Source of the DNA: Oscillospiraceae bacterium
GTDB lineage: Bacteria > Bacillota > Clostridia > UBA1381 > UBA9506
DNA length: 64,000 nucleotides
Assembly: GCA_015068905.1 (NCBI GenBank)
Contig: SVJQ01000001.1
Location: 62,001 to 126,000, forward strand
Direction of reading: 5' to 3'
Shown: positions 46,090 to 49,591 of the stretch, one piece after another
Numbering within the stretch: the stretch's first letter is position 1
How the letters are laid out: every line of letters starts with the position of its first letter
The notes under the pieces: generated by a model
Database searches by the model: none
What the model saw: only the letters and a program-made list of their open reading frames with translations
What the model was told of the DNA's origin: nothing
Translations under genes and position numbers: made by a program

Positions 46090-47205
46090 TTATATGGATT
46101 GGCGGTCTTTGTAGACTTCTTTATATACATCCTCTAATCGGGTTACGGATTTTTGAACCGTATACTGTTGTGCGATTTTCTGACCGGCAGCTTCGCCGAT
46201 GATAGAAGCAAAATCCGGATTGCAAATCAGCCGGAGCATAGCCAGCGCCATTGAGGTGCTGTCGGCATAGTTTACCAAAATACCATCTTCGTTATCCGTA
46301 ATGAGCTCACAGTTACCGCCGACGCGGGTGGCGATGATGGGCTTGGAAAGGCTCATTGCTTCCATCAGCGAAAGGCTCATCGCCTCAAACTTTGAAGCAT
46401 TTACAACAATATCGATAGCGCTTAAAAGCTCAGTTACATCATCCACAAAGCCTGTAAAGATAATGTGGTTCTCAAGCCCGTAGCGGCCGATGCGTTCTTT
46501 CAACTCTTGTTCCATACTGCCGGCGCCCACAATGATGAACTTTGCTTTAGGATATTCCTTTACAACCTGCCAGGCGGCTTTGATAAAATATTTATGCCCT
46601 TTATCCGGGTCCAGACGCCCGAAAATGCCGAGCAGAATTTCATCATCCTTAACATCGTAGCGATGACGGATATAGGAAATTGCTTCGTTGGATGCACGGC
46701 GAATCGGTACAATGCTTGTGCCGGCGATTCTGATTTTGTGTTGGGGGATGCCGCTGTCAGCCAGATTGCTTGCAGCAGCTTCTGATACTGCAATGTAGTA
46801 GTTGCAGGAAGGGTTGTGCAACAGGCCGTTAACCATAGCCCCCAGACTTTGCTCGGGGAAGGTGATACGATGCTGTGTGCCAATAACAACAGGCACCTTT
46901 GCCTTTTTGCCGGCAATGCAGGCAGAGGGGCAAGCGTGGGTTTGTACAATGTGCGGTTTGATTTTTAAAAATATGTCCTTTAAGCCGTTGACGCACTGTT
47001 TGTCATAGTTCTTGGCGGAAATATACGGAGATTCAATCAGTGTTACATCTTCTATAGCGCTCACAGCTTCAACCAGCTTACAGTTTTGTGGCAGGATTAC
47101 TGTGACGCGGAACAGAACACGGTCAAAATTTTCAAGATAATTTAAAAGATATTTTCCTGCATCGTCAATAATAGCCTCAGAAAGTACCTGCACTACATGT
47201 GTCAT
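46090..47205 (-). CDS. Family-4-like glycosyltransferase
   Basis: This 371-residue retaining glycosyltransferase of the GT-B fold has LLGIFGRLDPDKGHKYFIKA in the nucleotide-sugar domain and the EX7E-type motif FEAMSLSLMEAMSLSKPII, both typical of GT4. The N-terminal domain begins THVVQVLSEAI. Neither acceptor nor donor can be told. It appears to be the first gene of a long operon, with a consensus-like promoter upstream. Confidence 0.88.
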   Translation of the reverse strand: MTHVVQVLSEAIIDDAGKYLLNYLENFDRVLFRVTVILPQNCKLVEAVSAIEDVTLIESPYISAKNYDKQCVNGLKDIFLKIKPHIVQTHACPSACIAGKKAKVPVVIGTQHRITFPEQSLGAMVNGLLHNPSCNYYIAVSEAAASNLADSGIPQHKIRIAGTSIVPIRRASNEAISYIRHRYDVKDDEILLGIFGRLDPDKGHKYFIKAAWQVVKEYPKAKFIIVGAGSMEQELKERIGRYGLENHIIFTGFVDDVTELLSAIDIVVNASKFEAMSLSLMEAMSLSKPIIATRVGGNCELITDNEDGILVNYADSTSMALAMLRLICNPDFASIIGEAAGQKIAQQYTVQKSVTRLEDVYKEVYKDRQSI

Positions 47206-47311
47206 CTGTGAACACCCCCGTTAGTATTTTGCACTGTTGCGTTAAGGTCAAAAAATCGACAAAAAATTATTTTTGCCTGAGTTTGTACCTAAAAATAATT
47301 ATACAGATTAT

Positions 47312-47340
47312 ATTATATAACTAAATGCGCTAAAAGTCAA
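47312..47340 (-). promoter_or_regulatory. Sigma-A-type promoter of the twelve-gene operon
   Basis: On the minus strand TTGACT and TATAAT are 17 bp apart, 107 nt before the glycosyltransferase start. The 212-bp gap otherwise holds only the terminator of the SLOG gene. Confidence 0.75.
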
Positions 47341-47372
47341 TAAATTTACTATGGTTTTGCGGTAAAAACAAT

Positions 47373-47401
47373 AAAAAAACCGTGCCTTTAAAATAGCACG
47401 G
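47373..47401 (-). terminator. Terminator of the S24-repressor/SLOG unit
   Basis: CCGTGC and GCACGG enclose a 10-nt loop, with seven U on the minus strand. Confidence 0.8.
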
Positions 47402-47418
47402 TATACGGAAATATTTGT

Positions 47419-47919
47419 TTACAATAAAGACAGTTGCTGAGAGTCGGCGCCATCCAGCAAAAGGACTGAAATCCCTGACTTTTCAGCATAATTTACGGTG
47501 TATTTTGTGCCGCCACGGTTTTGCTCTAAATAGGCCAGCAAGCAAGAGGCTGAATCCACCAAAAAACGGTTTCGCCTTTGCATACAACCGTTGTCATAAT
47601 CCTCGGCTGTGTATACAATCTTATCGGCAGCAGCAACCAGTTGACGATAGACCTCTTTTTGCCCGCTTGACCAATACTTATCCTGATTTTTGCAGGGAAG
47701 AACCATACAAAGATGGATGTGGGGAAATTCATTCTTTAAGCTGATTACAGTTTGGGCGGCAAGTTGGTCAAACCCTAAGGCGCCACCGGAACAAAAATCA
47801 GTATAGCCTTTTTCAATCAGTGAGCGAACTGCAGAGTTAAGCTGTTTTGTCAATGCATCCCTCCGGCAGCTTCTGATTATTCTGTGGCCGGTAAAAGAGC
47901 AGGTTGTTTCTCGTTTCAT
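47419..47919 (-). CDS. SLOG-domain protein (DprA/LOG-like, DUF1273-type)
   Basis: This 166-residue Rossmann-like protein begins TCSFTGHRIIRSC and contains YTDFCSGGALGFDQLAAQTV, the glycine-rich loop of the SLOG superfamily that binds nucleotides or nucleotide-like ligands. CMVLPCKNQDKYW follows. Relatives include Bacillus YpsA; the function is not settled. GGGAGGGCTT precedes the ATG. It starts 27 nt after the repressor gene and probably shares its transcript. Confidence 0.85.
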   Translation of the reverse strand: MKRETTCSFTGHRIIRSCRRDALTKQLNSAVRSLIEKGYTDFCSGGALGFDQLAAQTVISLKNEFPHIHLCMVLPCKNQDKYWSSGQKEVYRQLVAAADKIVYTAEDYDNGCMQRRNRFLVDSASCLLAYLEQNRGGTKYTVNYAEKSGISVLLLDGADSQQLSLL

Positions 47920-47946
47920 AAGCCCTCCCGTTGGTGGTTTGCCGTC

Positions 47947-48612
47947 TTAAAAAATAGAGTGCAGGGACTTAATCACCTTGCCGAGAATTTTAAAAGACTG
48001 TTCATTCGGGTTGACAACAACAGGGCGGTAAACCGGATTGCTGCTTTCGCTTTCAAGCAATACAAACTCACCCTGACGGAAATAGCGGCAGAAAAATGCC
48101 GGATTATCTTCAAGGGCAACAGCGATAATTTCACCGTCGTCAGCATAGTCCTGTTCACGGATAATGGCAATACTGCCGTCAGGAAGGGCGGCGCGGTCCA
48201 TTCTGTCGCCGGAGACTTTTAAGCCGAAAATCTCACCTTCACCAACGAATGAGGTTGAAAAAATAAATTCATGAATGGGGACAGTGTGGGTTGTTAAATT
48301 AAGATACACAGGGACTGTTTTTTGAGTGAAAGAGACGGTAGGCTCTTCACCAAGAGTGTTAGCCGGTGCGGGAGATTTTTTTTCAATGCAAGCTTTAAGA
48401 TCATCAAAAGTAACGTTTGGATTTGTAAGATCGTCAGATTTCACACCGTAAAAACTTGCCAGCTGATCTAAGGTTGCACGGGGTGGCTTTGTATAACCGG
48501 TTTCGTGATTGGAGATGGTGGTTTTGCCCACGCCCAGCATTTGTGCCAGTTCGTCTTGATTCAGACCCTTATATTTTCTGAGCTTTTTTAACTTAAATTC
48601 GAGACTGTTCAT
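47947..48612 (-). CDS. XRE-family repressor with S24-like domain lacking the catalytic dyad
   Basis: This 221-residue regulator has a helix-turn-helix in residues 6-62 (LNQDELAQMLGVGKTTISNH), a linker and a LexA/CI-like S24 fold. In active S24 proteins the Ser sits in GDSM; here it reads VSGDRMDRAALPDG, so Ser is replaced by Arg. The catalytic Lys (VKR or LKK type) aligns with Cys in AFFCRYFRQ. Self-cleavage is therefore not expected. AAAGGAGCGCATCTT supports the ATG at 48612 rather than the frame start at 48675. It is probably autoregulated. Confidence 0.85.
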   Translation of the reverse strand: MNSLEFKLKKLRKYKGLNQDELAQMLGVGKTTISNHETGYTKPPRATLDQLASFYGVKSDDLTNPNVTFDDLKACIEKKSPAPANTLGEEPTVSFTQKTVPVYLNLTTHTVPIHEFIFSTSFVGEGEIFGLKVSGDRMDRAALPDGSIAIIREQDYADDGEIIAVALEDNPAFFCRYFRQGEFVLLESESSNPVYRPVVVNPNEQSFKILGKVIKSLHSIF

Positions 48613-48681
48613 AAGATGCGCTCCTTTGTTTTTTGATTGCACACATAGTTCAGAAATAGATAATCTGTTTGACATATACCG

Positions 48682-48710
48682 ATTATAACATAAAAAAAAC
48701 TAAAATTCAA
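48682..48710 (-). promoter_or_regulatory. Promoter of the repressor/SLOG unit
   Basis: On the minus strand TTGAAT and TATAAT are 17 bp apart, 70 nt before the ATG. Confidence 0.7.
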
Positions 48711-48720
48711 CAAAAAAATG

Positions 48721-48743
48721 TTTCAATTTGTTTCAATTTGAAA
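48721..48743. promoter_or_regulatory. Possible operator next to the repressor promoter
   Basis: TTTCAATTTG at 48721 is followed directly by TTTCAATTTGAAA at 48731, a palindrome around one T. It lies 10 bp upstream of the -35 box, a plausible place for autoregulation. The remaining 125 bp to the next terminator show nothing I can name. Confidence 0.4.
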
Positions 48744-48870
48744 AAATGATTGATTTTTTTATTCTTTTTATTTTAAAAATACAACTTACAGACTTAAAAA
48801 TACAATTAGCGGCAGGCAGTTATTCCGCTTTTTACGACGCTGTCTTGCGCCCATAACAGATATACAAACA

Positions 48871-48905
48871 AAAAAAGAGCTATGCAAATGCACAGCTCTT
48901 TTTTG
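48871..48905 (-). terminator. Terminator of the NlpC/P60 gene
   Basis: GAGCTATGC and GCACAGCTC enclose an AAAT loop with one A-C mismatch, flanked by A- and T-runs. Confidence 0.85.
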
Positions 48906-48907
48906 TC

Positions 48908-49591
48908 TTAATGTATAATTCTTCTTGCTGCATAATAGCAATTGTTATAGTAACCGGTTGTGATGCTGGTATATTTGACAACATCGCCGGTCTGCGGTGC
49001 GTGAATCATCATACCGTCACCGGCGTAAATGCCAACGTGATTGACATAAGTATTACCGGCACGCATAAACAGAACCAGGTCACCGGGGCGCAGCTCTGAC
49101 TTGCTGACGGGAACACCGTTTGCAAGCTGGTCGTGGGCGACACGGTTAATGTTATAGCCCAACTGACGGTATATGTAAGAGGTGAAACCGGAACAGTCAA
49201 AACCGGAAGGGCTTGAACCACCATATACATAAGGAACGCCTAAATACTGTTTGGCAAGCTGAACCACACGGTCGCCACCGGAAATATTCCCGCGGGAAGC
49301 AATATCTTCAGCACGGGTGCTGACATAGTCGCCGCAAATGTAGCCTTCAACACCATTGGGGCGTTTGTACATATACCAGTTACCGTATTTGCCGTAAAAG
49401 GTTAATGTAATTCCTTTAGATGCCTGCGTGAGAATCTCACGGTCGGTTCCGGCACCGGCGCGAACATTTACATTATCACCGGTAATGACGCCGGTACAGG
49501 GGAAAGTTTCCGCCACGACGGTCATAGAAAAGCCGCTGACAAGTAGCACAAAAGCGCTAAGTGTTGCAATCAGTTTTTTGTTTATTTTCAT
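48908..49591 (-). CDS. Secreted SH3-NlpC/P60 cell-wall hydrolase
   Basis: This 227-residue protein has a signal peptide (MKINKKLIATLSAF, cleaved near VVAE), an SH3b domain (GVITGDNVNVRAGAGTDREI) and an NlpC/P60 peptidase at residues 110-227. GFDCSGFTSYIYRQLG carries the catalytic Cys, NHVGIYAGDG the His, and MIHAPQTG the third polar residue. Such enzymes cut peptide stems of peptidoglycan. TCGGAGGAAAATTTTTT precedes the ATG; the longer frame to 49804 is not plausible. It is monocistronic. Confidence 0.93.
   Translation of the reverse strand: MKINKKLIATLSAFVLLVSGFSMTVVAETFPCTGVITGDNVNVRAGAGTDREILTQASKGITLTFYGKYGNWYMYKRPNGVEGYICGDYVSTRAEDIASRGNISGGDRVVQLAKQYLGVPYVYGGSSPSGFDCSGFTSYIYRQLGYNINRVAHDQLANGVPVSKSELRPGDLVLFMRAGNTYVNHVGIYAGDGMMIHAPQTGDVVKYTSITTGYYNNCYYAARRIIH

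Follow-up and report, generated by a model that had tools for sequence, protein, structure and literature searches.

The 64,000-nt stretch of an Oscillospiraceae contig that was analysed (hereafter, the window) carries an XRE-family repressor gene followed by a gene for a YpsA-type SLOG protein, and the two very probably constitute a functional, conserved two-gene operon (Table 1). This operon is probably controlled by its own repressor, whose LexA/CI-type S24 domain has lost the residues needed for self-cleavage. Taken as a whole, the reading in which the operon is autoregulated and repression is relieved without self-cleavage, most likely via the SLOG partner, is credible, if slightly short of probable. 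Sequence comparison establishes that the genes form a pair conserved in the genus, that the repressor's catalytic dyad is dead and the SLOG protein has its pocket motif, and that a terminator closes the unit ahead of a distinct promoter for the next genes.

Table 1. Features of the repressor-SLOG unit and its downstream limit (window coordinates).
Feature	Position	Strand	Size or basis
YpsA-type SLOG protein	47419-47919	-	166 aa
XRE helix-turn-helix repressor with degenerate S24 (LexA/CI-type) C-terminal domain	47947-48612	-	221 aa, ATG at 48612
Promoter-like site of the pair, TTGAAT-17-TATAAT, TG before -10	48682-48710	-	scan and alignment
Operator-like 10-bp direct repeat TTGAAACAAATTGAAACA, upstream of -35	48719-48736	-	comparison of genus members
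Terminator-like hairpin and T run 3' of SLOG	47379-47402	-	scan and comparison
Promoter-like site of the next glycosyltransferase-proBA genes, TTGACT-17-TATAAT	47312-47340	-	scan and alignment

A degenerate S24 repressor and a YpsA-type SLOG protein

The repressor shares the helix-turn-helix (HTH) and S24 architecture of the self-cleaving LexA and lambda-CI repressors (PF00717), as indicated by Pfam (PF01381 HTH_3, 1.7e-12; PF00717 Peptidase_S24, 2e-15; both above cut-offs) and by an AlphaFold model resembling LexA. The model, based on an eight-row genus alignment (mean pLDDT 84.6, pTM 0.54; residues 80-92 below 50), retrieved LexA structures as its top Foldseek matches (2.7e-10), with C-terminal domains that superpose at about 2-3 Å. 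Unlike LexA and CI, the protein has an HTH of XRE type and lacks both the Ser-Lys dyad and an aligned cleavage site. Alignment with LexA places Arg at the Ser position (SGDRM) and Cys at the Lys position (AFFCRYF). The initial annotation had described a repressor without self-cleavage residues, and this description extends to all nine genus repressors (L051 included), in which the Ser position is occupied by Arg in eight and Ala in one and the Lys position by Cys, Ser, Gly, or Ala. Likewise, no Ala-Gly or Cys-Gly linker cleavage site was aligned in any of the nine, in a region where the alignment is gappy. The same comparison took in 13 homologues from family f3, of the same order, and found Ser, Lys, and an A-G or C-G site intact in 13/13. 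A longer reading frame of 242 aa, starting at 48675, is an alternative for the repressor; AAAGGAG directly precedes the ATG at 48612.

The genome encodes its own LexA on the same contig, with the Ser-Lys dyad and the AG/CG site intact; therefore, the repressor described here is not the SOS repressor. No LexA box GAACN4GTTC occurs in the window, but none was found at one mismatch in the genome's own lexA locus either, so the box does not discriminate here. Among same-family homologues outside the genus, Lys is missing in 7/7; Ser is also missing in three (G001, G008, and G009) and aligned in four (G005, G006, G007, and G010). A homologue from family f4 (G093) has Ser and lacks Lys. Because same-family and f4 homologues are already without Lys, the loss of cleavage seems to be older than the pairing with SLOG. 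Lys-less S24 repressors also occur in sister genera without a SLOG neighbour, and a second XRE regulator with a dyad-less S24 domain is found in the same genome (G000:C20:9000-9284, locus L044; A and A in place of the dyad).

The SLOG protein scores over the curated cut-off for PF06908 YpsA (1.2e-22, 81.1 bits, cut-off 27.7). Its AlphaFold model, also from an eight-row genus alignment (mean pLDDT 90.9, pTM 0.86), matched YpsA of B. subtilis best in Foldseek (PDB 2nx2, E 1.2e-12, TM 0.84), followed by ShosA and DprA; the match to the SLOG domain of ThsA was weak (E 0.015). The fold and pocket motif are thus those of YpsA proper (PF06908), from which the protein differs in being 22% identical over the structural alignment, in scoring 65.5 bits on the PRK13660 equivalog, below the cut-off of 165, and in the lack of gpsB among its Pfam-named neighbours. 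The eight rows represent eight of the nine genus members, with L051 (G019) omitted from both the repressor and the SLOG alignment. Across them, the motifs FTGHR, ALGFD, RNR, and GGT do not vary and 49 positions are invariant, including GGT and G49-F50-D51, which contains the predicted nucleotide-pocket motif GxD/E (G49-x-D51, by alignment to YpsA). The available portion of PMC6459960 reports that mutation of the GxD/E motif disables YpsA. A known defence system was also considered and set aside: PADLOC yielded weak matches for the SLOG protein (SIR2 7.5e-4, ShosA 2.6e-3) or generic HTH matches, and nothing more.

Conservation of the pair and its transcription signals

The initial annotation had placed the two genes 27 nt apart between one promoter and one terminator, and had proposed conservation across genomes as a check. 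The reading frames, both on the minus strand with a 27-nt gap, the promoter-like site, and the hairpin with its T run were all found, and, contrary to the refuting outcome it had named, the genes are neighbours in relatives: they are adjacent and co-directional in nine of ten genus genomes. In the tenth (G014), genes for dehydroquinate synthase and prephenate dehydrogenase come after NlpC/P60, and the contig ends there. Genes of the same sizes, with a DAHP synthase outermost, lie between NlpC/P60 and the pair in L052; thus, G014, whose contig stops before the expected place, cannot be counted as lacking the pair. The gap between the genes is 13-34 nt in 7/9 members and longer in L051 (162 nt) and L053 (49 nt or 127 nt according to which start is taken), which leaves room for a separate SLOG promoter in these two. 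In the tree, the nine SLOG orthologues cluster together, with an SH-aLRT of 84 that is below the starred level.

ProB and ProA homologues lie downstream of the pair in 9/9 members, and an NlpC/P60 homologue lies on its other side in seven, with intervening genes in L047 and L052; on that side, L049 has gyrase B and the contig of L048 ends without an NlpC/P60 homologue. A 15-pair hairpin at 48871-48904, which separates the NlpC/P60 gene from the repressor promoter, is probably the NlpC/P60 terminator. The interval from SLOG to ProB in L054 holds, by Pfam, MurJ, Wzy_C, GT4, and two DUF4330 genes. A Wzy-size gene, GT4, and two genes of 166-175 aa were found there in 7/9 members (named by size and order beyond L054) and a MurJ-size reading frame in 6/9, while the window and L047 have GT4 alone. 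At 47205-47419 of the window, the MurJ-, Wzy-, and DUF4330-size genes are missing, as in L047, and the almost invariant promoter has been retained, so that it now precedes the glycosyltransferase and proBA genes.

The -35 and -10 positions of the pair promoter coincide in nine aligned genus members, window included. The promoter of the glycosyltransferase-proBA genes (TTTATTGACTT...TATATAAT) is nearly invariant in the nine aligned members and sets the downstream limit of the unit, and a scripted search recovered the hairpin with a T tail 3' of SLOG in 8/9, L051 being the exception. On account of this nearly invariant promoter and of the hairpin, the pair looks like its own unit. Scans of 47100-49000 returned 8 promoter-like sites against a shuffled mean of 4.1 and 3 terminator-like sites against 2.1, each weak by itself; the comparison across members gives the better support for both predicted signals.

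Autorepression is suggested by the direct repeat at the pair promoter, which occurs with at most one mismatch in 4/9 members (the window, L047, L049, and L050), a count made on the same members from which the pattern was derived, and as one exact copy in the genome (87% complete). The repeat has three mismatches in L051 and is not clear in the remaining four, and a box that is clear in only 4-5 of nine members counts against its use as an operator. Allowing two mismatches genome-wide gave 3 sites versus 1 for a backwards control, and allowing three within the window gave 3 matches versus 1.22 expected; a wider regulon acting through this box is not supported by the genome-wide comparison.

These observations would also suit ordinary local control, in which the repressor limits its own operon and SLOG is a housekeeping factor without feedback. 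The single exact operator-like site at the pair promoter, the unit's own terminator, the separate promoter that follows it, and inheritance at one place upstream of proBA all fit such an arrangement. What it leaves unexplained is why many unrelated XRE regulators recur beside SLOG genes and why a whole S24 domain is retained without catalysis, and local control of this kind is, on balance, unlikely, although it is the alternative to be taken most seriously.

A proposed route to relief without self-cleavage

In the preferred reading, a vertically inherited, autonomous operon would encode a LexA/CI-shaped repressor that binds its own promoter, putatively at the 10-bp direct repeat upstream of -35, and so sets the levels of itself and of SLOG. 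Because the S24 domain cannot cut, relief needs another route; the domain would serve dimerisation and offer a docking or ligand site, and nothing else. Repression would then be lifted with no need of RecA-driven self-cleavage, and the SLOG partner is the most likely agent: it might contact the repressor as a sensor of a nucleotide (NAD/ADP-ribose-like), or it might make or remove the repressor's ligand. The SLOG pocket would be the natural place for a signal; candidate ligands come from the available part of PMC9503650, which predicts NAD or ADP-ribose derivatives for viral SLOGs of the YpsA-like clade. That the SLOG protein acts on the repressor is put forward tentatively. The initial annotation had imagined a small signalling unit; the conserved unit, the dead dyad, and the SLOG pocket motif agree with that picture, whereas the coupling between repressor and SLOG is the part that we infer.

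Precedents for such relief come, by analogy, from two phage systems, each known here from the available portions of its report. The Gifsy repressors resemble the one in the window in that they are not cleaved, and antirepressor binding, i.e., a second protein, inactivates them (PMC3121763). At 136 aa, the Gifsy-1/-2 repressor is much the smaller and has no cleavage motif, and its antirepressor is encoded elsewhere than in the immunity region, under LexA control (PMC3121763); the gene of the candidate partner in the window is adjacent and encodes a SLOG protein. In phage TF-smORF modules, a transcription factor, in some cases an XRE, stands beside a divergent gene, and the product of the divergent gene inactivates a repressor independently of SOS (PMC10432266). 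Their partner is a small protein without a predictable domain (PMC10432266); the partner in the window has a nucleotide-binding fold, and no second repressor is known for the pair. Thoeris ThsA/ThsB has the SLOG fold in common with the pair, according to the part of PMC9503650 available. It differs in that the partner here is a repressor, and none of the named neighbours (NlpC/P60 and GT4; in L054, MurJ, Wzy_C, and DUF4330) is a TIR, SIR2, or effector gene. If the coupling is true, a CI/LexA-type switch would answer to a nucleotide signal in place of RecA, and a first testable partner would be at hand for the numerous genes annotated as 'SLOG family protein', so far unexplained, in gut Clostridia and the mobile elements of these bacteria. 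With a dead dyad kept in a conserved pair, it also becomes possible to test directly what non-cleavable S24 domains respond to.

XRE genes beside SLOG genes outside the genus, and competing origins

Outside the genus, homologues of the repressor and SLOG were not found as neighbours in 85 genomes of the order (E 1e-15, place tables read by eye); in G009, G046, and G049, they share a contig at 13-18 kb from each other. A survey of SLOG neighbours was made on the best 80 of 321 relatives (8 from the genus, leaving 72 genome loci) plus 12 viral loci. By Pfam, HTH_3 was found in 22/78 of the next upstream and 4/76 of the next downstream neighbours of SLOG at these loci outside the genus (Fisher p 1.6e-4), a count that entered 78/80 upstream and 76/78 downstream neighbours, omitted L146 and L147, and was affected by overlapping spurious reading frames that masked short XRE genes. 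With an XRE profile and an improved choice of reading frames, such genes were found next upstream in 41/81 and next downstream in 3/80 cases, again at these loci, and in 34/660 of the other reading frames of the surveyed loci (Fisher 3.8e-12 versus downstream, 1.6e-24 versus other frames). The profile was built from 26 of the neighbours counted and is circular for those 26 loci; 23 of them match HTH_3 independently at E 0.01, and most of the added ones were accepted by eye. Where frames overlapped, the profile survey favoured XRE frames on all sides alike, and its sets B and C share loci with each other and a few with set A. The recurrent theme is statistically strong, though sampled from the best-matching SLOGs.

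Orientation among the 41 upstream neighbours is divergent in 39 and co-directional in two; head-to-head pairs of a short XRE and SLOG are found in many Clostridia and on some viral contigs (range L073-L156), for example at L079:4549-4869 and L115:4550-4873. Same-family SLOG loci have an upstream XRE in 6/16 and a downstream one in 0/16 (p 0.018), including paralogues within the genus (G012, G014, and G017) and a co-directional XRE overlapping SLOG in genus g5 (G009:C50); for the best same-order loci, the upstream figure is 1/20. This low figure, the lack of repressor-SLOG neighbours in the 85 order genomes, and the Lys-less S24 repressors that have no SLOG beside them in sister genera all weigh against the preferred reading. 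Clustering of the 47 XRE neighbours gave 10 groups at 35% identity and 19 at 50%. A quickly built SLOG tree, many of whose forks are weak, requires 17 changes of the XRE label against a shuffled mean of 23.1, and starred branches force three changes and no more; these labels derive from the first (Pfam) survey and lack the cases found later. Since the XRE clusters are diverse and the label is scattered on the tree, the pairing was probably gained or lost repeatedly.

This recurrence is the strongest hint of a link between repressor and SLOG, yet it involves other XRE types in mostly divergent arrangements. Because 39/41 are divergent and the XREs are short and unrelated, it need not inform the pair in the window. 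A broader proposal, speculative and itself unlikely, is that Clostridia and the mobile elements they carry possess in XRE-SLOG a general two-gene regulatory module that has not yet been described and that was recruited repeatedly with unrelated XREs. In it, the XRE would both control and be switched by a SLOG protein that senses or processes nucleotides. The window would then hold a chromosomally fixed form, in which LexA-like self-cleavage has been traded for SLOG-mediated, nucleotide-gated relief. No description of the XRE-SLOG pair was found in the available portions of the literature searched; one may exist in the founding SLOG survey, which is reportedly that of Burroughs from 2015. The terms helix-turn-helix and HTH are absent from the main text of PMC6459960, the available part of which lists four YpsA contexts: gpsB, phosphoribosyltransferase, NAD processing and salvage, and conflict systems. 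Sporadic SLOG-HTH fusions in phages are mentioned in the available part of PMC9503650.

A different history, in which the pair is a domesticated immunity region of a prophage or integrative and conjugative element (ICE), now fixed in the chromosome and perhaps of minor present function, would account for several matches. The best PHROG for the repressor is the phage repressor family phrog_4 (3.2e-28), SLOG matches phrog_289 (1.2e-14), and XRE-SLOG pairs occur on viral contigs (8/12 loci, L145-L152). For example, in Vescimonas fastidiosa (RefSeq annotation), a helix-turn-helix regulator stands 151 nt from a divergent SLOG family protein gene, next to ArdA and a transposon-transfer gene. A mobile origin is nevertheless decidedly unlikely, given that no integrase, phage, or transfer gene appears among the Pfam-named neighbours (window, L054, and a few others) and that the nine orthologues, all with proBA alongside, group together.

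A toxin-antitoxin-like reading, modelled on RES-Xre, would cast the XRE as antitoxin and autorepressor at once, with SLOG as an effector that consumes nucleotides or NAD. Typical toxin-antitoxin loci are patchily distributed, whereas this pair lies upstream of proBA in 9/9 genus members that have it, and the PADLOC matches of SLOG are weak. The regulator gene does come first in the pair; RES-Xre modules acting on NAD+ are known (PMC9503650), and overexpression of B. subtilis YpsA causes filamentation, an effect lost in the pocket mutants G53A and E55Q (PMC6459960), as far as the available parts of both reports go. Weighed together, these points leave the reading quite improbable. Finally, a regulator of envelope or cell division that answers wall status would suit NlpC/P60, GT4, and, in L054, MurJ and Wzy_C as neighbours, and the influence of YpsA on B. 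subtilis division and S. aureus cell size (PMC6459960), but it is very improbable, as the next operon has its own promoter, the operator-like box would need at least four mismatches there in 9/9 members, and the pair persists in the window and L047, where MurJ and Wzy are missing.

Further observations concern the other genes near SLOG. A link to NUDIX genes was considered and dropped, the gene after SLOG in L123 being unrelated to the NUDIX hydrolase gene that overlaps the SLOG end in L115 (L115:5465-6049, a roe deer rumen genome). Vescimonas alone, among five annotated SLOG regions, has an annotated regulator adjacent; the others comprise the already known phosphoribosyltransferase-SLOG arrangement on a Bacteroides plasmid, CidA/LrgA in Monoglobus, and hypothetical genes in two phages.
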